This document shows positions 4,944-39,963 of a stretch of DNA of 64,000 bases, one piece after another. The first letter of the stretch is position 1; the number at the start of each line of letters is the position of its first letter. Under the pieces are notes generated by a model. The model did not search any database, had not been told where the DNA came from, and saw nothing but the letters and a program-made list of their open reading frames with translations. The DNA comes from Candidatus Bathyarchaeota archaeon. Lineage in GTDB: Archaea; Thermoproteota; Bathyarchaeia; Bathyarchaeales; Bathycorpusculaceae. The stretch is from positions 1 through 64,000 of the forward strand of contig JAOZHU010000015.1 of the NCBI GenBank assembly GCA_026014705.1, given 5' to 3'. A program made the translations under genes and the position numbers.

Positions 4944-5945
4944 ATGGAAAAAGTAAAATTTGCCATACCCGCGGGTTCTCTCGCCAAAGCAACCTTCGAA
5001 ATCTTGCAAAGGTCAGGCTACAAAGTTTCAGGGCAAGAACGAACCTACAGACCAACAATAAACGACCCGAAAATCGAACTGAAAATTCTCAGACCCCAAG
5101 AAATTCCAGTCTTCGTCAGCGAAGGCTTACAAGACGTAGGCATCACAGGACAAGACTGGATCAAAGAAACATGCGCCGACGTGGAAATTCTCGAGAATCT
5201 AGAATACGGAAAAATCAAACTAGTCGTCGCCGTCCCCAAAAGCTTCAACACAGCAGATTCCGTCGGCGGCATCATGGAGTCCATCTGGAGCAAGGGAAAA
5301 AACGTGCGCGTTTCCACCGAATACCTGAATATCGCAGCGGAATACGTCAAGACTAACCCTGCATACCAGAAGCGCTTCGGCAATTCCGAACCGTTACTGG
5401 TGACGCCGTGGTGGCGCAAAGGCGAAAACCCACGTGCAAAAATTTTCCTGTCTTTCGGAGCGACAGAAGCCAAACCGCCTGAAAACGCTGACTTCATAAT
5501 GGACGTTACTGAGACAGGCTCAACACTGGAGCAAAACAACCTGCGAATAATCGACACCGTGATGCAGTCTTCAGCCGTGCTAATCGCCAACAAGAAAGCC
5601 TTGACTGCACCAGAGAAGAAGGAGAAAATATACGACATCATGACCCTGCTGAAAGGCGTAGTAGACGGAGCAAAAAGAATCCACATATTCGTAAACGTAA
5701 AAAAAGAAAACCTCCAAAAACTCCTGAAAGACCTGCCCGCACTCAGAAACCCCACGATAGCGCCTTTAGCTGACGAAAACTGGTGCTCAGTCAACACGAT
5801 AATAGAAAAAGACCACCTCATAGAACTGCTGCCGAAAATCCGCAAACTAGCCCAAGGCATAGTGGTTTACGAACCGCGGCAAGTGCTGGCTTTAGATGAC
5901 GTGAAACGGAGAGAAGAAGACACATGTCCAGCCAGCTCCAAATAA
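4944..5945 (+). CDS. hisG: ATP phosphoribosyltransferase, long form (HisG)
   Basis: HisG catalyses the first step of histidine synthesis, joining PRPP and ATP. The 333 residues match the long, hexameric form: the periplasmic-binding-protein-like catalytic part (AIPAGSLAKATFEILQRSGY at the start, GITGQDWIKE, DVTETGSTLEQNNLRIID) and a C-terminal ACT-like regulatory domain from about residue 240 (GAKRIHIFVNVKKENLQKLL to LAQGIVVYEPRQVLALDD). The long form is self-sufficient and needs no HisZ. The start has GGTGAT five bases upstream of the ATG. The last 22 bases overlap hisD. Confidence 0.97.
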   Translation: MEKVKFAIPAGSLAKATFEILQRSGYKVSGQERTYRPTINDPKIELKILRPQEIPVFVSEGLQDVGITGQDWIKETCADVEILENLEYGKIKLVVAVPKSFNTADSVGGIMESIWSKGKNVRVSTEYLNIAAEYVKTNPAYQKRFGNSEPLLVTPWWRKGENPRAKIFLSFGATEAKPPENADFIMDVTETGSTLEQNNLRIIDTVMQSSAVLIANKKALTAPEKKEKIYDIMTLLKGVVDGAKRIHIFVNVKKENLQKLLKDLPALRNPTIAPLADENWCSVNTIIEKDHLIELLPKIRKLAQGIVVYEPRQVLALDDVKRREEDTCPASSK

Positions 5946-7219
5946 AAATCTGCAAAGCCTCAGCTTTGCCTGCAGACTGGCACAAAAGAACACATGTGAC
6001 CGACCCAAAAATTGCAGAAGCCGTTAACGTCATCATAACCACAGTCGCAGAAAAAGGAGACGCAGCGTTAATCGAGTACACAGAGAAATTTGACAAGGCC
6101 CAACTGAAAGTCGAAAGCCTCAGAGTAACCCACCAAGAAACTGAAGCAGCCTACCGCTTGGTCAGCGACGAACAAATTGCCGCCATCAAACTCATGAAAA
6201 CAAAAGTAAGCACATTCGAAAACCTCGTATTGAGCCAATGCAAGCTCCAAACAACCAGCGACGGCATAACCGTCAGAAACGTGCTGAAGCCAATAGAAAG
6301 CATCGGCTGCTACGCGCCAGGAGGCCAAGCCGCTTACCCCAGCACCGTGGTAATGACGGCGGTTCCAGCCAAAACCGCTGGAGTGCCACGAGTGGTCGTG
6401 TGTTCTCCCCCAACAGCCGAAGGCACAGTTAACCCGCTGGTTCTCGTTGCGGCTGACCTCTGCGGAGTGAACGAAGTGTACAAGGTTGGCGGTGCCCAAG
6501 CCATAGCCGCTTTAGCATATGGAACCGAAACCATTAAGCCCGTGCAGAAAATTGTGGGTCCAGGCAACAGGTATGTGACAGCAGCGAAAATTCTGGTTTC
6601 CAAAGATGTAGCCATCGACCTGCCTGCTGGTCCAAGCGAAGTTCTTGTTTTAGCTGACGAAACGGCTGATCCGCAGTTGGTTGCGTTGGACATGGTTTCA
6701 CAGGCGGAGCACGGTGCGGACAGCGTGGCAGGTTTGATAACCACGTCGGAGCAGCTTGCAAGCGAAGTTGCCGTTTGGCTTGGCAAAATTGCGGCTTCAG
6801 CGGAACGCGGCGCCATCGTTCGCGAAGCGTTAGCGGAGCAGGGTTTCATAATCACTTGTGGAAGCATAGCGGAAATGGTGGCTTTGGCGAATGTCTTTGC
6901 GCCAGAACACGTTGAAATAGTAACTCGTCGTCCCGCAGAAGTTGCGGACCGAATTACGTCAGCGGGCGTCATCCTTCTGGGCGCGTATAGCCCTGTCGCT
7001 TTGAGTGATTACGGTAGCGGAACAAATCATGTTTTGCCGACAGGCGGTTTCGGGCACGCGTTTTCAGGTTTATCCGCGCTTGACTTTGTGAGAAGAGTCA
7101 GCGTCGTCGAAAGCTCAAGAGAAGGCTTGTTGCGGTTGCGGCGTCACGTGCAGGTCTTAACGGAGGCAGAAAACCTTCCAAATCACTATCTAGCAGTGGA
7201 GGCGAGGTTCGCTAAATGA
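5924..7219 (+). CDS. hisD: Histidinol dehydrogenase (HisD)
   Basis: HisD performs the last two oxidations from histidinol to histidine using NAD and zinc. The 431 residues cover the whole family. Key parts are YAPGGQAAYPSTVVMTAVPAKTAGV (substrate and nucleotide site), VGGAQAIAALAYGTETI, VGPGNRYVTAAK, LPAGPSEVLVLAD, the zinc-binding QAEHGADS region, and the C-terminal APEHVEIV plus GTNHVLPTGG. The gene overlaps hisG by 22 bases and its stop overlaps the hisC start by four (ATGA). Confidence 0.98.
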   Translation: MSSQLQIKICKASALPADWHKRTHVTDPKIAEAVNVIITTVAEKGDAALIEYTEKFDKAQLKVESLRVTHQETEAAYRLVSDEQIAAIKLMKTKVSTFENLVLSQCKLQTTSDGITVRNVLKPIESIGCYAPGGQAAYPSTVVMTAVPAKTAGVPRVVVCSPPTAEGTVNPLVLVAADLCGVNEVYKVGGAQAIAALAYGTETIKPVQKIVGPGNRYVTAAKILVSKDVAIDLPAGPSEVLVLADETADPQLVALDMVSQAEHGADSVAGLITTSEQLASEVAVWLGKIAASAERGAIVREALAEQGFIITCGSIAEMVALANVFAPEHVEIVTRRPAEVADRITSAGVILLGAYSPVALSDYGSGTNHVLPTGGFGHAFSGLSALDFVRRVSVVESSREGLLRLRRHVQVLTEAENLPNHYLAVEARFAK

Positions 7220-8331
7220 CCATTGGAAGCGGGAAGTGGCTGAAGAAGAAACTTAAAGAGTTGCAGCTTGTTGAAAGTTACCACCGTGAATTAACTAATG
7301 AAACCGTAGCGAAGCAACTGGGAATTCCGCCAAGCGAAATCATCAAACTCAACTACAACGAGAATCTGTTCATTCCCAGAGCAAAGCTTGTTGAACTCAT
7401 GCGCGAAGTTGCGGAAGAATGTGATTTGAGGATTTACCCGCAGGAAGAGGAAAATAGGCTGAAAGAACAAATCAGCATCTACCTCGATGTGCCAGCGGAC
7501 TGCGTGGCTGTTGGCAACGGAAGCGACGAACTCATAGACCGCATTGCGCGGCTTTTCTTGGAAAAAGGCGATAAGGCGGTTTCGGTGGCGCCGACGTTTC
7601 CCGTGTTAAGACAATGCGTACAGCGTCAAGGCGCCGAATACACTGCTGTGCCTCTTCTCAGCAATTTTGAGCCTGACGTTAAAGGGCTCGCGGATGCTTT
7701 CACAGCGGATGCTAAACTGCTTTATTTGTGCTCACCTAACAACCCAACTGCAAACCAGTTCAGCAAAAGCGCTGTTACGGGTTTAATCGCGAAGTTTTCT
7801 GGCTTAGTTGTTTTGGATGAGGCTTACGCAGAGTACGCTGATTACTCCTTGGTTCAACTTGTAGAAAAGTACGACAATTTAGTTGTGCTGCGGACTTTTT
7901 CTAAAGCCTTCGGGCTAGCAGGACTTAGATTGGGCTACGCTGTGGCGAGTGCGCCTCTGGCGAAGGTTCTTGCAGAGAAGGCAGCTTTGCCTTTTCCTGT
8001 AAGCGTGTTCACTTTGGGCATGGGACGAAAGCTTCTCGAAAACCGCAGCATGGTGGAAAAGAGCGTGGAAGAGCTAAAGGCTGAACGGGGAAAACTCGTG
8101 CAGCGCCTTAACGCCATAAGCGGCATCGAAGCTTTTGATTCGAAAACAGACTTTGTGCTCTTCAACACGGCTAAGCCTTTTGAGGAGGTTTACGAGAAAC
8201 TTCAGCGGCAGGGCATTCTCATAAAGAAGTTCGGCAAGCTCTTGCATCTTGAGAATTGCCTCAGAACCACCGTGGGGTTGCCTGAGATGAACATTAAGCT
8301 ATTAGGAGCGTTAGAGGAAATATTTAGGTGA
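7216..8331 (+). CDS. hisC: Histidinol-phosphate aminotransferase (HisC)
   Basis: A fold-type I PLP enzyme converting imidazole-acetol phosphate to histidinol phosphate. Visible motifs: NYNENLFIPR near the N-terminus, VGNGSDELIDRIARLF (phosphate-binding loop), LCSPNNPTANQFS, LDEAYAEY, and the PLP lysine in TFSKAFGLAGLRLGYAV. The C-terminal LENCLRTTVGLPEMN carries the substrate-carboxylate arginine. Length is 371, slightly longer than typical because of an extra 20-residue N-terminus. It is coupled to hisD by a four-base overlap and followed by hisB after six bases. Confidence 0.97.
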   Translation: MTIGSGKWLKKKLKELQLVESYHRELTNETVAKQLGIPPSEIIKLNYNENLFIPRAKLVELMREVAEECDLRIYPQEEENRLKEQISIYLDVPADCVAVGNGSDELIDRIARLFLEKGDKAVSVAPTFPVLRQCVQRQGAEYTAVPLLSNFEPDVKGLADAFTADAKLLYLCSPNNPTANQFSKSAVTGLIAKFSGLVVLDEAYAEYADYSLVQLVEKYDNLVVLRTFSKAFGLAGLRLGYAVASAPLAKVLAEKAALPFPVSVFTLGMGRKLLENRSMVEKSVEELKAERGKLVQRLNAISGIEAFDSKTDFVLFNTAKPFEEVYEKLQRQGILIKKFGKLLHLENCLRTTVGLPEMNIKLLGALEEIFR

Positions 8332-8337
8332 TGAATA

Positions 8338-8913
8338 ATGCGTGTAAATGAAGTTTACAGGAAAACTCGTGAAACAGAAGTTCGTGTGAAAGTAAACTTG
8401 GACGGTGAAGGAAAAGCCGATGTGGACACAGGCGTGCAGTTCCTCAATCACTTGGTGACTTCGCTGGCTACACACAGCTTAATTGACTTTACTGCCAAAG
8501 TGACGGGCGACTTGAAGCACCACGCCACCGAAGACCTAGCCATATGCCTAGGCGACGCCCTGAACAAAGCTTTAGACAGCCGCGAAAGCATAACAAGATT
8601 CGGCTACGCCGCTGTGCCTATGGACTGTTCCTTAGCTTTTGCAGCCATAGACTTAGTCAAACGCCCTTATGCCAAAGTTGACCTGAACCTTCGAGGAAAA
8701 AAAATCGAAGACATGCCCACCGAAGACATTTATCACTTCCTCGAAACCTTAGCAACTTCCTTAGCTGCGAATGTTCACGTGTGGGTTGAATACGGCAGCA
8801 ACGACCACCACAAAACAGAAGCAGCCTTCAAAGCTCTTGCGCTTTCGCTGCGGCAAGCAGTGGCTTTCGACGCACGGAGAAAAGGCGTACCCAGTTCAAA
8901 GGGAGCAATCTGA
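8338..8913 (+). CDS. hisB: Imidazoleglycerol-phosphate dehydratase (HisB)
   Basis: This is the single-domain dehydratase (191 residues), without the histidinol-phosphatase domain fused to it in enterobacteria. It has the two manganese-binding histidine clusters HHATED and DHHKTEAAFKALA, the conserved GVQFLNHLVTSLATHS, and the GYAAVPMD and FLETLATSLAANVHV segments. The ATG follows a clear GGTGAT. The TGATG junction couples it to hisH. A separate phosphatase is required for the pathway and is not visible in this window. Confidence 0.97.
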   Translation: MRVNEVYRKTRETEVRVKVNLDGEGKADVDTGVQFLNHLVTSLATHSLIDFTAKVTGDLKHHATEDLAICLGDALNKALDSRESITRFGYAAVPMDCSLAFAAIDLVKRPYAKVDLNLRGKKIEDMPTEDIYHFLETLATSLAANVHVWVEYGSNDHHKTEAAFKALALSLRQAVAFDARRKGVPSSKGAI

Positions 8914-9518
8914 TGCCTGAAGCAGTGATAATCGACTATGGAGTTGGAAACCTCCTGAGCCTAAAATGCGCTTTGGAGAAAGTCGGCTTAACCGTGACGG
9001 TTGGCTTGTCAACGAAACAGCTGAAAAAAGCAGACGCAATAGCGTTGCCAGGCGTTGGAAGTTTTCCAGCCGCAGCGGGCAAACTTGACACCGTGAAAAC
9101 TGCGCTGGTCGACGCAGTTCAGAGCGGGGTTCCGCTGTTGGGGATATGCTTGGGTTTACAGTTGTTCTTTCCAGAAAGCGAAGAAGGCAAGGGAAAGGGA
9201 TTAGCGCTCTTCGACGGCAAGAACATTTGCTTGCCGAACTCTGTCAAAGTGCCGCACATGGGGTGGAACACACTCAACATAGTTAAGCACAGCGAGCTTT
9301 TAGACGGCATCGCAGATGGCGCTTACGTATATTTTGTGCATTCGCTTTACCCCGTTCCAGTTGACAAAAGCATAGTGTGCACAGAAACCGAGTACGGCGC
9401 AACTTTCACTTCGGCAGTAGCAGCGAAAAACGTGTATGGCACTCAGTTTCACCCTGAAAAGTCAGGCGACACTGGAATACGCATATTGGCTAACTTTGCC
9501 AAGGCAATTGTGAGGTGA
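8913..9518 (+). CDS. hisH: Imidazoleglycerol-phosphate synthase, glutaminase subunit (HisH)
   Basis: HisH is a class I glutamine amidotransferase that feeds ammonia to HisF. The 201 residues contain the nucleophile loop GICLGLQLFFPESEEG (Cys in GICLG), the conserved DYGVGNLLSLKCALEKVG at the start, PHMGWNTL, YFVHSLYP and the catalytic FHPEKSGDTG at the end. The start overlaps the hisB stop by one base. The partner hisF is two genes downstream with hisA between, a common archaeal order. Confidence 0.97.
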   Translation: MPEAVIIDYGVGNLLSLKCALEKVGLTVTVGLSTKQLKKADAIALPGVGSFPAAAGKLDTVKTALVDAVQSGVPLLGICLGLQLFFPESEEGKGKGLALFDGKNICLPNSVKVPHMGWNTLNIVKHSELLDGIADGAYVYFVHSLYPVPVDKSIVCTETEYGATFTSAVAAKNVYGTQFHPEKSGDTGIRILANFAKAIVR

Positions 9519-9525
9519 AGCGCAG

Positions 9526-10251
9526 TTGCAGGTGATTCCAGCAGTTGACTTGATGGGCGGCAACATCGTCAGGTTGTCCCGCGGCGACCCAAAAACGGCA
9601 AAGGTTTATGCGCAGTTCGGCACGGCTGTGGAAACCGCGAAAAAATGGGAACGCGACGGCGCAAAAAAACTGCATATTATCGATTTAGACGCAGCGTTCG
9701 ACGCAGGCGACAACCTTTCAGTCATAGCTAAAATCGCGGAAAGCGTAGACTTGCCAATCCAGGTGGGCGGCGGAATCCGCAGTATAGCCGCTGTTGAGAG
9801 ATTGCTTGCGCTCGGAATTAGCCAAGTTATCCTAGGTGCGTTAGCGTTCAGCGCCCCAAACGCAATATCTCAAATCCAGAGGAGATTCGGAGCCAACCGT
9901 GTAATCGTTGCTTTGGACAACAAAGATGGCAAAATAATGGTTGCTGGATGGAAAACGCCGACAACCTTCGGCATGAAAGACGCCTTGGAAAAATTTGCCG
10001 CACTCAAAGTTAGCACGTTTCTTGTAACTTCAATTACAAAGGACGGTACGCTTTCTGGTCCAGATTTGGAAACGCTCCGCGAGGCATGCGGTTATCCGAA
10101 TGTGGAGATAATTGCGGCAGGCGGTATCGGCGCCTTAAAAGATTTGGTGGCGCTTAAGCGTGTAGGCGTGGCGGCTGCGGTGGTCGGCAAGGCGCTTTAC
10201 GAAAACAGATTTACTTTCAAGGAAGCTTTGAAAGCGGTGGAAGGAGAGTAG
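9526..10251 (+). CDS. hisA: ProFAR isomerase (HisA)
   Basis: HisA is a TIM-barrel isomerase of the fourth histidine step. The 241 residues show the phosphate-binding half-barrel repeats: IPAVDLMGGNIVRLSRGD, LHIIDLDAAFDAG, QVGGGIRSIAAVERLLALG, TSITKDGTLSGPDLE and IIAAGGIGALKDL, the last four lying at the barrel mouth. The catalytic aspartates fall in VDLMGG and TSITKDGT. The gene starts at TTG 9526, preceded by GAGGTGA, so the unusual start is well supported. The following hisF gene begins six bases after its stop. Confidence 0.97.
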   Translation: MQVIPAVDLMGGNIVRLSRGDPKTAKVYAQFGTAVETAKKWERDGAKKLHIIDLDAAFDAGDNLSVIAKIAESVDLPIQVGGGIRSIAAVERLLALGISQVILGALAFSAPNAISQIQRRFGANRVIVALDNKDGKIMVAGWKTPTTFGMKDALEKFAALKVSTFLVTSITKDGTLSGPDLETLREACGYPNVEIIAAGGIGALKDLVALKRVGVAAAVVGKALYENRFTFKEALKAVEGE

Positions 10252-10257
10252 ATAGCT

Positions 10258-11061
10258 GTGCCTTTGGCGAAACGTATAATTCCGTGTTTAGATGTGGACC
10301 ACGGCAAAGTCGTGAAAGGCATCAACTTCGTAAACTTGAAAAAAGCTGGCGACCCTGTCGAGTTGGCAAAACGCTATTCGGATGAAGGTGCAGACGAACT
10401 CGTTTTCTTAGACATAACCGCCTCCTCAGAAAAGCGTGACATCCTGCGAGGCGTAGTCGAGGGCGTGGCAAGAGCCATAAATATTCCATTCACCGTCGGC
10501 GGTGGTGTCCGCAACGTTTCAGACGCTAGACTAGTCCTTTGCAGCGGCGCAGACAAAGTCTCCGTGAACACAGCAGCAGTGGAAACCCCAGATGTGGTTA
10601 CTATGTTAGCGGATGTTTTCGGGCGCCAATGTGTAGTAGTGGCTATAGACGCAAAACGGCGCTTTGAACAGCGTGCGGATAGGGTTACGGTGGAAACCAG
10701 TGAAGGTTCAGTGTGGTTTGAAGTTTACACTTACGGCGGAAGAAAACCAACAGGCATAGACGCGGTCAACTGGGCGGTGCGGGCTGCGGAGCTTGGAGCA
10801 GGCGAATTCCTCGTAACTTCAATGGACAAGGACGGAACAGAAGACGGCTACGACCTGGAGTTGACGCGAATAATTTCTGAACGGGTGAACGTGCCTGTCA
10901 TCGCAAGCGGCGGCGCCGGGAAACCTGAACATTTCCGCGAAGCATTTACCGCTGGCAAGGCAGACGCAGCATTGGCGGCTTCTGTTTTTCACTACAACAA
11001 GTATCCTGTGCCTATGTTGAAGGATTACCTGCGCAAACAGGGGGTGACCGTTAGACCTTGA
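10258..11061 (+). CDS. hisF: Imidazoleglycerol-phosphate synthase, cyclase subunit (HisF)
   Basis: HisF closes the imidazole ring using ammonia delivered from HisH. It is a TIM barrel homologous to His[20 protein letters not shown] with the catalytic Asp in [60 protein letters not shown] with the second catalytic Asp, and [17 protein letters not shown]. The 267-residue length is normal. It starts at GTG 10258 after GGAGAG, and its TGA overlaps the hisI start. Confidence 0.98.
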
Positions 11062-33478: not shown

Positions 33479-34459
33479 TTAGATTGGGTACGCTCCGCAT
33501 ACCTTGCAGAATTGGATGCGCGTTTTCACGTAGCTCTTGCAGTAGGGGCACTGTATTCCGCCGTTGTCAGGGTAAACCTCAGATGGTTTCCCGAAAAGCT
33601 TCCTGAAATGTTCATAATACAGCAGCTGCTCCTTGTCCTGAATTTTCACGTCATCTTCTTCGAGAATGGCTTTCTTTTTCTCGGCGAATTCTTGGTCAGT
33701 GTACTCTTTATCAAAGAAGGTGCGTAGCACAGCGGTTCCTGTTCCCTCCTCTAACGGCGCCTTAGGCCTCCAAATGACTTCCTTCGGTATCAGGTTCTCG
33801 TATGCCTTGCGGAGTATCCATTTGCTGTATCTTATGCCTTCATGCATGTTAATCTTCAGCTTGATCGGCAGTTTCTTGGCCCAATCCATGAAAAGGGGGT
33901 CCAAAAAGGGCGCCTTTATGCTCATGTCAAGTGATTCAGCCATTGGTATTGAAGAGAAACCCATTTCTGCCCACATCTCTTCCTGTTTCTGCTTAAACTC
34001 CGCTTCTGACAGGTGGAACTGCCATGGGTAACCGAAAAGCTCATCCAGCGCGTCGCCTGTGAAAACGCTTTTGACGCCTTTTTTCTTCAGCAGCGTTAAG
34101 CCGATGTATACGGGCATGCTGTTTCTTATTTCCATTGGGTCGAATTTTTTCAGAGCTTTCACGACTTTTGGCGCGTTGCTGAGTACTTCGTCGCGGTCGA
34201 ACACGTGTGTTTCATGGTTAAGTTTCAGGAAAGCCACCATCTTCTTCACGTATTCGGTGTCCTTCGGGTTTCCATGCTTGAACGCCAAGGTCAAACATGG
34301 GATAGTGGGCTTGTACTTTATGGCTTCGTAGGCTATTATTGTGGTGTCTGTTCCCGCTGAGAACAAGAAGCCGTCAGCCATGTTTCTTTGTACGACTTTG
34401 TTCACTAAAGCTGGAATTTCAGGTAGAAGGTTAATGTACTCTTTTTCGTCAAGTGCCAT
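33479..34459 (-). CDS. Asparagine-synthase-like ATP-pyrophosphatase with zinc ribbon
   Basis: The 326-residue protein corresponds to the C-terminal synthetase half of asparagine synthase: a PP-loop FLFSAGTDTTIIAYEA (residues 31-46, SAGTDTT in place of SGGLDSS), VFTGDALDELFGYPWQ, MSIKAPFLDPLFMDWA and GIRYSKWILRKAYENLIPKEVIWRPK. There is no glutaminase domain. A C-terminal zinc ribbon (CPYCKSYVKTRIQFCKVCG) follows instead. It may use ammonia or a sulfur donor, and its substrate is uncertain. A zinc ribbon on a PP-loop enzyme is typical of tRNA-modifying enzymes such as TtuA, so tRNA could be the substrate. Confidence 0.8.
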   Translation of the reverse strand: MALDEKEYINLLPEIPALVNKVVQRNMADGFLFSAGTDTTIIAYEAIKYKPTIPCLTLAFKHGNPKDTEYVKKMVAFLKLNHETHVFDRDEVLSNAPKVVKALKKFDPMEIRNSMPVYIGLTLLKKKGVKSVFTGDALDELFGYPWQFHLSEAEFKQKQEEMWAEMGFSSIPMAESLDMSIKAPFLDPLFMDWAKKLPIKLKINMHEGIRYSKWILRKAYENLIPKEVIWRPKAPLEEGTGTAVLRTFFDKEYTDQEFAEKKKAILEEDDVKIQDKEQLLYYEHFRKLFGKPSEVYPDNGGIQCPYCKSYVKTRIQFCKVCGAYPI

Positions 34460-34671: not shown

Positions 34672-35946
34672 GTGCGTTATGATAGTCACGACGGATGGCC
34701 ATACAGCAAGATTGAGCACTGGCCTCCAATGACTTACCGAGACCGTTCCGTTCCTACTCCTGAGGCTCTGGCTGCGTTTGCTGATTTTCTTAAGACCGAC
34801 AATTCAGCCAGCCAAAACCGGGAACTGCAGCCTTGGCTTCCATTCTGCGAGGGTAGATGCGCCTTCTGTTATTTTCCTGTAAGCTGTGAAAAACAAAATG
34901 TCGCCGCGTATATTGCCGCTTTGAAAAAGGCCTTAGGATTTTACGCTAAGAACAGGTACGTGCAATCAAGTGTTTTCAACGAACTTTACGTAGGCGGCGG
35001 AAGCCCCACGGTTCTCGCCAGTCACTATTTAATGGATATTTTGCAGTTTTGCCGCGGCAACTTCAACTTAACCCGAGACTGCACAACGAAAGTCACCGCT
35101 TGTACCAACAGCCTTTCCGACGACAAAATTCGCTTGTTGTCTGCAAGCAAAGTTAACCAGTTAGACATAGGCATCCAGACGTTTGATGATTCCTTGCGCA
35201 AGATGCTGCTGCTTCGTGACAGCGGCGGAGACGCTAGGCAAAAACTGAAGGTTGCTAAAAAACATGGTTTAAGCGTCAGCATCGACCTGCTGTACAATCT
35301 CCCAAAGCAGACAAAAAAGCAGTGGGTTGAGGATTTGAAACAGGCTTTGGAGTTGGAAGTTGAAAGTGTAGATTGCTATCCGCTGGATTTATATGCGGAT
35401 ACGCCGTTAGCGCGGCGAATTGCGGCAGGCGAGTTGCCGCCGATTGGTGATGACGCGGCGGAGATGGAAATGTATGTTGAGGCTTATCATCTTTTTAAGG
35501 AAAACGGGTATTTGCCTACTTGCCATAACAGGTTTTCGAGGATTAAGGAAGACTTCGATAAGCCTTCGTCGGAGGTTGTGGGTACGGGCGCTGGGTTTTT
35601 CATGGGGCACATAGGCAGTTACCTTTACTCGGACATTGATGATGTTAAAGACTATGTTGCTGCCGTGGATCGTGGCGTTTTGCCGATTGCTAGGCTTGCC
35701 ACGCTTTCGCAGGAAGCTGAAATGCGTAAAGCAATGATGTTGATCTATCTTCGTGTTCCCGTGGAACGTGAAGAATTCAAAATGCAGTTTGGCAAGTTCC
35801 CTGAAGAAGCGTTCCCTGATGCTTTGCGCCGGTTGCAGGAGAAACAGCTGATTGAAATAGCTGATGGCAAAATATGTTTAACTGAGAAGGGTGACCCGTG
35901 GCGGTTTAACATCGCTTGGGAGTTCTTTAAGGACTGTGAGAATTGA
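34672..35946 (+). CDS. HemN/HemW-like radical SAM protein
   Basis: A 424-residue protein with the radical SAM motif CEGRCAFCYFP (Cys59, Cys63, Cys66), the glycine-rich ELYVGGGSPTVL, VNQLDIGIQTFDDSLRKMLLLRDSG, and SIDLLYNLPKQTKKQWVEDLKQALEL, all typical of the coproporphyrinogen oxidase/HemW family. The C-terminal winged helix (EEAFPDALRRLQEKQLIEIADGKICLTEKG) is also typical. HemN decarboxylates coproporphyrinogen; HemW chaperones heme. Which activity applies cannot be told. It starts at GTG 34672 after a TATA-like TAACTTTAAAAG at about 34621-34632, and is followed by the nitrilase. Confidence 0.85.
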   Translation: MRYDSHDGWPYSKIEHWPPMTYRDRSVPTPEALAAFADFLKTDNSASQNRELQPWLPFCEGRCAFCYFPVSCEKQNVAAYIAALKKALGFYAKNRYVQSSVFNELYVGGGSPTVLASHYLMDILQFCRGNFNLTRDCTTKVTACTNSLSDDKIRLLSASKVNQLDIGIQTFDDSLRKMLLLRDSGGDARQKLKVAKKHGLSVSIDLLYNLPKQTKKQWVEDLKQALELEVESVDCYPLDLYADTPLARRIAAGELPPIGDDAAEMEMYVEAYHLFKENGYLPTCHNRFSRIKEDFDKPSSEVVGTGAGFFMGHIGSYLYSDIDDVKDYVAAVDRGVLPIARLATLSQEAEMRKAMMLIYLRVPVEREEFKMQFGKFPEEAFPDALRRLQEKQLIEIADGKICLTEKGDPWRFNIAWEFFKDCEN

Positions 35947-35958
35947 GGGGGTTCAAGA

Positions 35959-36708
35959 GTGAAGGTCAGCCTGATCCACCTGAAAGTCCGCGGTTCGCTT
36001 AGCGGCAATCTTGAAGCGGCTTCGGCTGGGATTCGCAAAGCCGCTCAGCAAAAACCCGCGTTTATCGCTCTTCCCGAGTATTTTTCTGTTCCCAACAACA
36101 TGGAACAATTCAATTCTGCAAAAGAAATCAGCAAACAAACCTACGCGGTGACGATTCGCTTTCTCGCGGAAATCAGCAAAGAGTTTCCAAGCATTTACAT
36201 TATAGGCGGTACCGTGCTTGAGGAGGACAACGGCGTGTTCTATAACACTAGCACGTTGTGGCGAAACGGCACATTGATCGGCACGTACCGCAAGCGGAAT
36301 CCGATAGCTGCTGAGCTGCGGGCTGGGGTAAGCCGCGGCGACAAGGCTGCTGTGTTCGCTACTGAGTGTTGTAAGGTTGGTTTGCTTGTTTGCGCGGACA
36401 TGTTTGACCCACCGACCATTAAAGCGGTTGTTGATTTAGGTGCGGAGCTTGTGTTTTTGCCTGTTGCTGCTATGGGGACGCATCCGCATGTGACGGGGCA
36501 TCCGTTGACTGAGAAGCTTGCTACAGAAAACGGCATTTACGTTGTCAAAGTTGGCAATGTTAGCTCCAATGCGCGGGGTGGAAGAAGCGCGTTCATCACG
36601 CCGTGGGGTGTTGCGCAGGAGGCGTCGGACGAGGTGGAGGATTCTGTTTTGAGTATCGATTTTGACTTGCAGAAGCTCAAAGCGTATCGAGAATCGCTGA
36701 AGAGATGA
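35959..36708 (+). CDS. Nitrilase-superfamily carbon-nitrogen hydrolase
   Basis: A 249-residue amidase-type enzyme with the catalytic triad of the family: Glu in FIALPEYFS, Lys in TLIGTYRKRN and Cys in VGLLVCADMFDP. The pattern is that of small-amide hydrolases. The GTG start is preceded by GAGGGG and lies 13 bases after the HemN-like gene, so the two are probably co-transcribed. The substrate is unknown. Confidence 0.88.
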   Translation: MKVSLIHLKVRGSLSGNLEAASAGIRKAAQQKPAFIALPEYFSVPNNMEQFNSAKEISKQTYAVTIRFLAEISKEFPSIYIIGGTVLEEDNGVFYNTSTLWRNGTLIGTYRKRNPIAAELRAGVSRGDKAAVFATECCKVGLLVCADMFDPPTIKAVVDLGAELVFLPVAAMGTHPHVTGHPLTEKLATENGIYVVKVGNVSSNARGGRSAFITPWGVAQEASDEVEDSVLSIDFDLQKLKAYRESLKR

Positions 36709-36746: not shown

Positions 36747-37631
36747 TCAGTAAAGTTTGGCCCATTCGTCTATTATGCGCGCCATTTCGGCGAAGTCGTA
36801 TCGTTTGAGCCACTCTCGGAGTTCAATGTTGTTTACAGCGAACTTTGCTACTTGCCTCGCGTTTTCTGCGTCGTGCACGAGCAGCAGCACAGCCATCAAG
36901 TTGTGCCTGCTTAGGTAGGCTACCGTTTTCAGCAGTGCCTCAGTTTTTTCGTTGTTCAGCATCTCTGCACTCAATTCCACAACTGCAGGTTTCTTCAGGA
37001 TTTTGAGGAAGTTTCTTGTTAGGAGGTCTACCCAGTAATTTGTGAAGTAATCCCGCGATGAAAGAGGCACATGGAAGTAGTCCACCAGTTCCGCTATGCT
37101 TTCAAAGTCTATGCCGAAGCGTTCTTTGGCGAGAACTGGGTCTGGATACATTTCCACGGCGAAAGTGCCTTTAACTAGTCGTTTGGCTTTTTTCAGGAAA
37201 CTGGTTATTTCCTGTGCGCGCCATTCTGTCCAGTTTAAGCCGCTTTGGCGCCATAGTTCCACGCAGCGTGGGCACACGCAGAATTCTTCTTCCGGGAAAT
37301 GGTAAAGGTTCAGCGTTACGCCTTGAATATCTTCCTTGTTTAAAGTTTCGACGTAGTTTAGGACTTTGGTTTGGTAGTCGGGGTTTGTGGGGCACACGAA
37401 GTCGAAGGGCACGTTTATCCGCCTATTCTTGCGCAATGCTGGACCATTTTTTGAGACCGCCACCATGTCCGGTTTTTCCCTGATGGCTTTTGCATCGCAG
37501 AAGCATGTGGCATCGTTTTGCATTTTTCTTGCGGCTGGGAAAACCGCACCGTCTGCCCATTTCGAGTAGTAAACATGTGGGTTGAACCCTGCGACTTCTT
37601 CCGGTGTGTACGTGACTAGTCCGATTTGCAT
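36747..37631 (-). CDS. Unknown TIM-barrel-like protein with CVCPRC motif, paralogue 1
   Basis: A 294-residue soluble protein of unrecognised family. It shares with the 39064-39963 protein the blocks VAVSKNGPALRKNRR (ISVSKDGPAFRTNKK), a CxCPRC motif inside EEFCVCPRCVELWRQSGLNWTEWRA, AEMYPDPVLAKERFGIDFESIAE-like segment and C-terminal EWAKLY. The alternating strand-helix order suggests a glycoside-hydrolase-like TIM barrel, with a cysteine cluster that could bind metal. The two paralogues flank the ferredoxin and CbiZ in opposite orientation. Confidence 0.65.
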   Translation of the reverse strand: MQIGLVTYTPEEVAGFNPHVYYSKWADGAVFPAARKMQNDATCFCDAKAIREKPDMVAVSKNGPALRKNRRINVPFDFVCPTNPDYQTKVLNYVETLNKEDIQGVTLNLYHFPEEEFCVCPRCVELWRQSGLNWTEWRAQEITSFLKKAKRLVKGTFAVEMYPDPVLAKERFGIDFESIAELVDYFHVPLSSRDYFTNYWVDLLTRNFLKILKKPAVVELSAEMLNNEKTEALLKTVAYLSRHNLMAVLLLVHDAENARQVAKFAVNNIELREWLKRYDFAEMARIIDEWAKLY

Positions 37632-37690
37632 GTTTCTTCACTTGCGCGGAAGAGATATATTCTTGCGGCTTATTTAATTGTTGATTCGCT

Positions 37691-37915
37691 ATGGGCAAAC
37701 CTAAAGCCTATGTTTCTTTTGATTATGCTAAGTGTCCGCCATGTTCAGGTACCGTCTGCGTAGGCGTTTGTCCGCTGGGTGTTTTGGAGGTTGGTTCCGA
37801 TGGTAAGCCACATGTTGCTGATGCCGCTGAATGCACCGTGTGCGGTGTGTGCGCAGACTTGTGCCCGTGTAAGGCGATTGCGATAGTGCATAACGAAGAG
37901 CTCTGTCAAAAATAG
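37691..37915 (+). CDS. 2[4Fe-4S] ferredoxin-like protein
   Basis: A 74-residue electron carrier. The first cluster uses CPPCSGTVCVGVCP and the second CTVCGVCADLCPC, giving eight or more cysteines in the ferredoxin spacing with an extended first loop. The start ATG lies only 60 bases downstream of the divergent TIM-barrel-like gene, and cbiZ begins ten bases after its stop, so ferredoxin and cbiZ are likely co-transcribed. Confidence 0.9.
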   Translation: MGKPKAYVSFDYAKCPPCSGTVCVGVCPLGVLEVGSDGKPHVADAAECTVCGVCADLCPCKAIAIVHNEELCQK

Positions 37916-37925
37916 TGGTGAGGTC

Positions 37926-39014
37926 ATGCGACAGTTTGAACTTGTTGGGAAAGGCGTGAAGTTAGTTCTGAGCGATAACGTGTTAGCTGTTTTATCCGAT
38001 GCCCCGCTTACTACGGTGAGTTCCGCATTTCATAACGGTGGCGGCGTGAAGACAACAAAGGTCATAATTAACGCTGAAGTGACTAAAGCTTACAGCGACC
38101 GTGTGCTTCATGCGAACCCGGAGGCGTTTCTCGAGGCTTCTGCAAGGAAATTCGGCGTTACTGAAAGCTATATTGGCATGGCTACGGCGGCAGCGGTGGA
38201 CAACTTCGCATTGGTTTCCAAAAAAACTAGCCATATAGGCGTCAGTGTGATGGCTACCGCAGCAGACAATGCAGGCAACACTTGTAACCATTCTGAGTCG
38301 GCAGGTGAACCTATTGAGATTATGGAGCACACTGGAACAATTAACATAATCGCCATAATAGATGGTAATCCGACTGAAAGCGCCTTAGTGGGAACAATTA
38401 TCACAGCGACTGAGGCAAAGATGGCGGCGTTGCGGGAACTGGATATCCGCAGCCGTTATTCTGGCGATGAGGCTACGGGCACGGTGACTGACGCCATAAC
38501 TGTTGCTGCGACTAATCGTGGAGCGCCGATTGTGTATGGCGGTCCTGCATCAGAGTTAGGGCAGCTTGTCGGGTTCTGCACAAAGAAGGCAGTTAAAGAA
38601 GCAGTCATGAAGGCGAACGAGTGCATGCCCAGCAGGTCTATCTTGAGCAGACTGAAGGAGCGGCATTTGCCTGTCGAACACTTGGCTTCTGAACTTGCCA
38701 AGGTCAAGAGCTTAGGCGTTGAGGAGAGTGCTATCGCAGCCTTGCTGGTTAAGGTTTTGCAGAGTGATGCGTTAGCGGCTTCAGTTGTGTGGGCGGCTGT
38801 GAAAATAGCTGAGGACATCGAAAAAGGCGTGGTCCCGCCAGAATTCGGGAAGCCCGAAACTTTGAGCAAACGGTTTGGCGCTTTTTTCACGAAACAGGCT
38901 GGCGTTTCAGATGAAGAGCATGTTGCAGTGGATTTGCCTCTTTTCCTGAAAGACGTGTTAATCGGCATTGTGCATAACGCGCTTTCCACGGGAAAAACTG
39001 AAAGCCTTAAATAA
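37926..39014 (+). CDS. cbiZ: Adenosylcobinamide amidohydrolase (CbiZ) with C-terminal extension
   Basis: CbiZ removes the aminopropanol side chain from adenosylcobinamide, which lets archaea salvage incomplete corrinoids. The N-terminal part (residues 1-235) is CbiZ: LTTVSSAFHNGGGVKTTKVIINAEV, GMATAAAVDNFALVSKKT, GTINIIAIIDGNPTESALVGTIITATEAKMAAL, VAATNRGAPIVYGGPASELG. A further 120 residues of predominantly helical sequence of no recognised family follow (SRLKERHLPVEHLASELAKVKSLG to LIGIVHNALSTG). The ferredoxin precedes it closely. Confidence 0.88.
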   Translation: MRQFELVGKGVKLVLSDNVLAVLSDAPLTTVSSAFHNGGGVKTTKVIINAEVTKAYSDRVLHANPEAFLEASARKFGVTESYIGMATAAAVDNFALVSKKTSHIGVSVMATAADNAGNTCNHSESAGEPIEIMEHTGTINIIAIIDGNPTESALVGTIITATEAKMAALRELDIRSRYSGDEATGTVTDAITVAATNRGAPIVYGGPASELGQLVGFCTKKAVKEAVMKANECMPSRSILSRLKERHLPVEHLASELAKVKSLGVEESAIAALLVKVLQSDALAASVVWAAVKIAEDIEKGVVPPEFGKPETLSKRFGAFFTKQAGVSDEEHVAVDLPLFLKDVLIGIVHNALSTGKTESLK

Positions 39015-39063
39015 CCTGCAATTTTATTCCGTAAACACAACACTGTAAAGATGGTGGAAACAT

Positions 39064-39963
39064 TTGAAGTTTGGAGTCTTCTTGTATCAACCAGAACCCG
39101 TTGAGGGTGTAGACATTAACTTTTACCGCATAAAGCCCGAATCAGGAACCGTTGGGAAGCCTAACCCTGAGATGTATACAAACATCGCGGTTTTCGGCGA
39201 TAACGCTTTGGCGGCCAAGCGTCCTGAATGGATTTCCGTGTCTAAGGATGGTCCCGCTTTCCGCACCAACAAAAAGTACAATTTGCGCTGGGATGTCTTA
39301 TGCATGACGAACCCTGAAGTGCGCGAATACAACCTCAAGTTAATCGAGGAATGCGCGCGGAAAACACCAGGCATCAGCATCAGTAGCCAGCATTTTGCTG
39401 AGCGTGACTTCTGCGTGTGCCCAAGGTGCGTTGAGCAGTGGCGCACGAGCGGGTTGAACTGGGTAGACTGGCGCGCGAAAACCGTTACCGCCTTCCTGAA
39501 AGAAGTTCGTGAACGCGTAGTGGGTAAACCCTTGTTTGTGAACTGCTTGCCTGACCCATTGCTGGGCAAAGTGCGGTTCGGATACGATTTTGAGGCTATG
39601 GCTGAATACGCCGACTACTTTGTCATTCCAATGTTCAGCAAAGCGTACCCGACGCCGTGGTACTGGGAAACCATCGCTCGAGGCTACAAGAGCTTCTTGA
39701 AGAAGCCAGTTTTCGTGAATTTCTATGTGCGTGGTCCAGGCGAAACATGGGAGACAGTTGCGCCGCACAGGCAGATTATGACAGTGGCAACGCGCGCAGC
39801 GAGAACAGGCATTGACGGCGTAATCTTCTTGGCGGAGAAAGCGCAGTGGATACGGGAGTTCCAGCAGAAAGTCGTTGAGGACAAGGAGTGGCGGAAAGAA
39901 CTGGAAGGCTACGGCGGAGACGAAGTCCTAGAACTTTTCAACAGATGGGAAAAACTGTTCTAA
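39064..39963 (+). CDS. Unknown TIM-barrel-like protein with CVCPRC motif, paralogue 2
   Basis: This 299-residue protein is the paralogue of 36747-37631. Shared blocks include ISVSKDGPAFRTNKK, CVCPRCVEQWRTSGLNWVDWRAKTVTAFLKEV, and a C-terminal LFNRWEKLF. FVNCLPDPLLGKVRFGYDFEAMAEYADYFVIPMF and VFVNFYVRGPGETWETVAP look like barrel strands ending in polar loops. It starts at TTG 39064 after GGTGG and lies 49 bases after cbiZ, so it may be in the same transcript. Function unknown. Confidence 0.65.
   Translation: MKFGVFLYQPEPVEGVDINFYRIKPESGTVGKPNPEMYTNIAVFGDNALAAKRPEWISVSKDGPAFRTNKKYNLRWDVLCMTNPEVREYNLKLIEECARKTPGISISSQHFAERDFCVCPRCVEQWRTSGLNWVDWRAKTVTAFLKEVRERVVGKPLFVNCLPDPLLGKVRFGYDFEAMAEYADYFVIPMFSKAYPTPWYWETIARGYKSFLKKPVFVNFYVRGPGETWETVAPHRQIMTVATRAARTGIDGVIFLAEKAQWIREFQQKVVEDKEWRKELEGYGGDEVLELFNRWEKLF

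Follow-up and report, generated by a model that had tools for sequence, protein, structure and literature searches.

The window analysed here, a stretch of 64,000 nucleotides from a Candidatus Bathyarchaeota archaeon (genome G000), carries two paralogous genes, A and B, on both sides of a gene for a 2[4Fe-4S] ferredoxin and a gene for a CbiZ-domain protein (Table 1). As the preliminary description had noted, both paralogues encode proteins of about 295 residues with a CVCPRC motif (FCVCPRC, residues 117-123 of A). From end to end the two proteins shared 35% identity (BLASTP, E=7e-64), and at the level of sequence their homology goes far past the common motif. The divergent gene A is separated from the ferredoxin gene by 59 bases, where 60 had been given. 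The gaps between ferredoxin and cbiZ (10 bases) and between cbiZ and B (49 bases) make the proposed co-transcription of these three genes plausible. A third family copy (C) lies elsewhere in the genome (G000:C32:20285-21172), and one close relative has a copy of paralogue B that is 90% identical. Elsewhere in the window (4944-11061), a histidine biosynthesis run (hisG, hisD, hisC, hisB, hisH, hisA, hisF) was recognized by eye.

Table 1. Genes at the locus in the window and putative partner genes on contig C36 of the same genome
Feature	Position	Strand	Remarks
Asparagine-synthase-like protein with zinc ribbon	33479..34459	-	Frequent neighbour; relative in L039 matches PF00733 (2.7e-42)
HutW/HemN-like radical SAM protein	34672..35946	+	Best NCBIfam match HutW, E=1.7e-59
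Nitrilase-superfamily hydrolase	35959..36708	+	E=8e-27
Paralogue A	36747..37631	-	294 aa; putative divergent MtgB-family protein, probably the published 'group 3'
2[4Fe-4S] ferredoxin	37691..37915	+	74 aa; eight cluster cysteines
CbiZ-domain protein	37926..39014	+	362 aa; CbiS relative, degenerate CobZ-like C-terminal half
Paralogue B	39064..39963	+	299 aa; TTG start; putative MtgB-family methyltransferase 1
MtgA, MtrH-family	G000:C36:13889-14791		Adjoins the corrinoid protein gene
MtgC-type small corrinoid protein	G000:C36:14830-15249		

The protein previously named CbiZ does contain a CbiZ domain (PF01955, E=5.7e-42, 144.3 bits against a cut-off of 27), but it is not a plain CbiZ. It scored 113.5 bits against the NCBIfam CbiS model, below the equivalog cut-off of 250, and no match to the CobZ half was found in it. 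In relatives, this half was intact in one deep-branching member (L221, 142.7 bits) and weak in another (L219). Judged by these profile scores, the protein is a CbiS relative of CbiZ plus CobZ layout with an eroded phosphatase half, and it is referred to below as the CbiS-like protein. Its structural model (pLDDT 79) showed a weak fold likeness to amidases of the NylC/DmpA type (best E 6e-7, TM ~0.37), which would suit an amide hydrolase and is perhaps a hint to the mechanism of CbiZ.

Further corrinoid genes were found in the same genome. A second cluster on the contig of the window (G000:C4:137430-144593; L296:13430-19988 and L297:3-593) comprises genes for CobZ-like, BtuF, BtuC, BtuD, ATP-binding, CobT-like, CobS and CobY-like proteins. 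A CobN-type chelatase, a CbiZ of canonical length, BtuFCD, a CobD-like aminotransferase, CbiB and CbiD are encoded on another contig (L268, G000:C22:1-20000, and G000:C22:27158-27928). Since CobN and CbiD are present in this gene list, which is partial and rests on 1.34 Mb of genome, the organism is probably capable of both cobamide synthesis and salvage. CbiZ acts on adenosylated corrinoids, and members of the corrinoid adenosyltransferase families PF01923 and PF02572 were found neither in G000 nor in most of the relatives that belong to one large genus; a substitute may exist. The paralogues were considered as this substitute and rejected: both families are also missing in relatives without paralogues and present in some with them, so that there is no anticorrelation. 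Nor does the paralogue family mark the loss of de novo B12 synthesis, CbiD being present in 37 and missing in 16 of the genomes that bear it.

The distribution of these proteins was assessed in 189 Bathyarchaeia genomes, each at least 80% complete. The paralogue family was detected in 53 genomes, the short corrinoid protein in 60 and the CbiS-like protein in 68. All 53 family-bearing genomes also encoded a CbiZ/CbiS-type protein, which bears out the suggested corrinoid connection; a family found mostly away from cbiZ and tied to polysaccharide degradation was not what emerged. Family and short corrinoid protein occurred together in 49 genomes, the family without the corrinoid protein in 4 and the reverse in 11. 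The Fisher values for co-occurrence were tiny, computed over genomes that are related and hence not independent. Multi-copy genomes held 3-5 copies, and A, B and C were all present in well-sampled genomes. No strong match outside Bathyarchaeia was obtained among 397 genomes of the phylum, and members were also found in two families outside the main order.

In the 37 named loci, defined by a CbiZ gene and at least two family copies, the order A(-), ferredoxin(+), CbiS-like(+), B(+) was kept. The ferredoxin was present in all 37 complete loci, in 36 by tblastn and in L115, a short contig outside the tblastn search, by comparison of open reading frames. The HutW-like and nitrilase genes adjoin the locus in the window as had been reported; as parts of the group they hold up less well, the nitrilase being common though not universal (30 of 37 loci) and the HutW-like gene only an occasional neighbour. 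In 18 of the 37 loci, the same 20 kb also encoded MtrH and the short corrinoid protein. In many relatives the paralogue pair stands beside genes for MtrH (PF02007, 2e-83), for a B12-binding protein (PF02310, 1e-12) and for a membrane protein of the DUF1616 type. The cluster often runs on into genes for a radical SAM protein of the B12-binding kind, for DUF1616, MtrH and the corrinoid protein, and for large membrane proteins. G000 has DUF1616 and the MtrH/corrinoid pair on the separate contig C36 (L078).

In members of one genus with the corrinoid protein only, the CbiS-like gene still adjoins the MtrH/corrinoid pair, and ferredoxin, nitrilase and paralogues are all missing at the locus. The ferredoxin was likewise not found at nine loci without paralogues that retain the CbiZ-type gene (L207-L215), nor at three single-copy loci (L219-L221). 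Thus the occurrence of the CbiS-like gene follows that of the corrinoid protein, and the ferredoxin goes with the paralogues. In CbiS-bearing genomes without the family, nothing obvious replaces it beside the CbiS-DUF1616-MtrH-corrinoid protein genes.

These features correspond to a published system. A corrinoid protein/MtrH couple was described in Bathy-6, where the substrate methyltransferase could not be named (Loh et al.; PMC7886697). According to a later study, MtgB of Ca. Baizosediminiarchaeum ligniniphilus is a Bathyarchaeia-specific methyltransferase 1 (MT1) of about 300 aa, present in two copies that are 44.85% alike and neighbour mtgA, mtgC and a transmembrane gene; it has no homology to known MT1 proteins, is confined to one order of Bathyarchaeia and forms three groups, of which one is distant and the function of group 3 is called unclear (Yu et al., 2023; PMC10989822). 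The same study reports that MtgB_2 demethylates guaiacol and vanillin, the methyl group passing to Co(I)-MtgC in assays that relied on an activator taken from a bacterium, and its MtgC assay figures (1.2 mg/ml = 79 uM) imply a protein of about 15 kDa. In L040/L041, from the same genus as the published system (strain M17C was assigned to it in PMC12694404), adjacent B and C proteins of 300 and 302 aa were 45.0-45.6% identical, and the corrinoid protein on L039 has 142 aa and 15.1 kDa. The reported pattern of 2-5 MtgB in Bathy-6A/C, with MtgA and MtgC yet no MtgB in Bathy-6B (PMC11697101), recurs here as 3-5 copies and 11 genomes with the corrinoid protein that lack the family. No other gene of the cluster fitted the description of MtgB. 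Because of this match and the lack of another fitting gene, we infer that the paralogues are MtgB, the comparison being one with the published description (size, copy number, clustering and taxonomic range). In a maximum-likelihood tree, A-like proteins were split from B-like and C-like ones with strong support, the A-like branch including a distant set from one genus; B and C are probably MtgB groups 1/2, and A the distant group 3. Against this identity we counted the calculated mass of the paralogues (34-35 kDa versus 'about 32 kDa' in PMC10989822), the position of mtgA/mtgC on another contig in G000, the identity of only ~35% between A and B, and single-copy relatives in B12-uptake operons without the short corrinoid protein. 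On balance, we assign a probability of about 0.85 to the reading that the locus belongs to a cobalamin-dependent O-demethylase system of the Bathyarchaeia type with B as an MtgB-type MT1. The preliminary description was probably right that the paralogues handle a substrate, whereas the system it put forward as a candidate undescribed one matches a published one. This would place the locus in the anaerobic utilization of methoxyl groups from lignin, and Bathyarchaeia are thought to be important in this carbon flux.

From family, fold, gene content and co-occurrence, the following roles are proposed. Paralogue B, like the copy on contig C32, would bind a methoxylated aromatic compound and transfer its methyl group to the Co(I) of MtgC, from which the MtrH-family MtgA would hand it to H4MPT. 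Paralogue A is probably a like methyltransferase for another substrate or a partner in a complex. The CbiS-like protein may serve as an accessory in corrinoid supply or repair and the ferredoxin as a source of low-potential electrons; being constant in the genomes and at the locus, respectively, they are candidates for corrinoid supply and for reduction. According to PMC10989822 and PMC10477458, no activating enzyme was identified in the Bathyarchaeia strains examined there, and this gap makes the ferredoxin and the CbiS-like protein a testable candidate. With or without A, the two might be the module, so far missing from the Bathyarchaeal O-demethylase, for reductive activation or for loading of the corrinoid. 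In it, the phosphatase half having been lost, a CbiZ-type corrinoid-binding protein and a ferredoxin would reduce Co(II)-MtgC back to Co(I), with no need of the ATPase that usually serves as activator. We regard this extension as rather doubtful; it does name two proteins to test for a published system without a recognized activator.

The salvage role suggested earlier is less likely than substrate methyl transfer. The paralogues would in that case be enzymes of corrinoid salvage or remodelling, for example hydrolases with a TIM barrel that would open the nucleotide loop of cobamides after import, together with a CbiS-like amidohydrolase, as functional analogues of CbiR. CbiR shows that cobamides can be remodelled by a TIM barrel, and 25% of its genes are found next to transporters (PMC7733943); the strict nesting of the family in CbiS-bearing genomes would also suit such a role. 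Single-copy members were moreover found in three deep-branching genomes (G078, G079 and G170), which belong to two families outside the main group. There they lie in B12-uptake operons, flanked by BtuF and BtuC/BtuD and near CbiB, CbiZ/CbiS and CobS (L219:12754-13548, L220:13543-14337 and L221:3143-4045). These genomes contain MtrH-family genes, and the short corrinoid protein was not found in them; either the single-copy members act with another corrinoid protein or the older role of the family was corrinoid handling. Against salvage stand the demethylation of guaiacol and vanillin by MtgB_2 (PMC10989822) and the association of multi-copy forms with MtrH and corrinoid protein. Furthermore, corrinoid supply does not require the family, since relatives without mtgB retain the corrinoid protein, CbiD-type synthesis and a CbiS-like gene. 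We consider salvage improbable for the paralogues of the window, and it is kept alive by the single-copy members in salvage clusters, which hint at the origin of the family. As separate observations, a fourth, distant copy in the genus Bathyarchaeum (L046:9727-10620, with relatives in G054, G057 and G092) resembles the uptake-operon type (51% to G078) and adjoins arginine/carbamoyl-phosphate genes, and around position 111648 of G170:C2 (L330) small membrane-anchored proteins and an MtrA-like one were seen by eye upstream of MtrH, which suggests that this deep-branching Bathyarchaeon has a complete Mtr complex.

The structure prediction called for in the preliminary description gave a clear fold. 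An AlphaFold2 model of paralogue B, built with 45 family members, was predicted as an alpha/beta (TIM) barrel with a mean pLDDT of 95.9, and its closest folds in the PDB were Cwp19, GH164 and GH42 enzymes. Weak Pfam matches of the paralogues comprised DUF4015, GHL10, DUF4838 and GH42; B passed the DUF4015 cut-off narrowly (PF13200, 30.0 versus 27), and a sequence search against solved structures gave marginal matches only. Across 50 family members Cys80, Cys117, Cys119 and Cys122 (B numbering; Cys80 and Cys118/120/123 in A) were invariant, as were Asp46, Ser60, Asn69, Pro163-Asp164-Pro165, Arg171, Tyr195 and others. The resulting C...CxCxxC pattern presumably resembles the zinc site of GH42 enzymes. 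A role of the paralogues as glycoside hydrolases of plant polysaccharide is nevertheless highly implausible, since the conserved Glu/Asp pair that clan GH-A enzymes have where strands 4 and 7 end is absent from the family (position 110 is His, Tyr or Gly, the end of strand 7 is variable, and the invariant residues are instead Asp46, Asp77, Asp164, Arg171, Tyr195 and the four cysteines), the N-terminus is modelled as the first barrel strand and leaves no space for a signal peptide, and the neighbourhood is one of corrinoid and not of polysaccharide genes. For the O-demethylase reading, this DUF4015/GHL-like barrel with its Cys4 site gives structural work a place to begin on an MT1 that is said to be unlike any known methyltransferase.

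Comparison with known systems places the locus closest to MtgB (PMC10989822), with which the paralogues share length, paired copies ~45% alike, neighbouring mtgA, mtgC and membrane-protein genes, restriction to Bathyarchaeia and division into three groups. The window differs in having mtgA/mtgC on another contig and in a ferredoxin and a CbiS-like gene between the group-3-like A and B, an arrangement that the accessible text of that paper does not mention; the family described here also occurs in two families outside the one order given there. The bacterial-type O-demethylase follows the same logic (MT1, corrinoid protein, MT2), as outlined in PMC10989822, but its MT1 is unrelated to MtgB and it has an activating enzyme. 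CbiZ/CbiS (adenosylcobinamide amidohydrolase/alpha-ribazole phosphatase) shares the CbiZ domain and CbiS-type layout with the protein of the window, which departs from bifunctional CbiS by its degenerate CobZ half, its low CbiS score and a separate CobZ-like gene in the genome. CbiR of Akkermansia (PMC7733943) is similar as a TIM barrel tied to cobamide genes and transporters; it belongs to the AP endonuclease 2 superfamily, whereas the paralogues are DUF4015/GHL-like. The DUF4015/GHL putative glycosyl hydrolases and Cwp19 have the fold class in common with the paralogues and differ in conserved residues and function. New relative to these systems are the predicted high-confidence TIM barrel related to DUF4015/GHL glycosidase-like folds, the single-copy relatives within B12-uptake operons, the eroded phosphatase half of the CbiS relative, and the association of MtgB-family genes with a ferredoxin and a CbiS-type protein, which may be the missing helper of the system.
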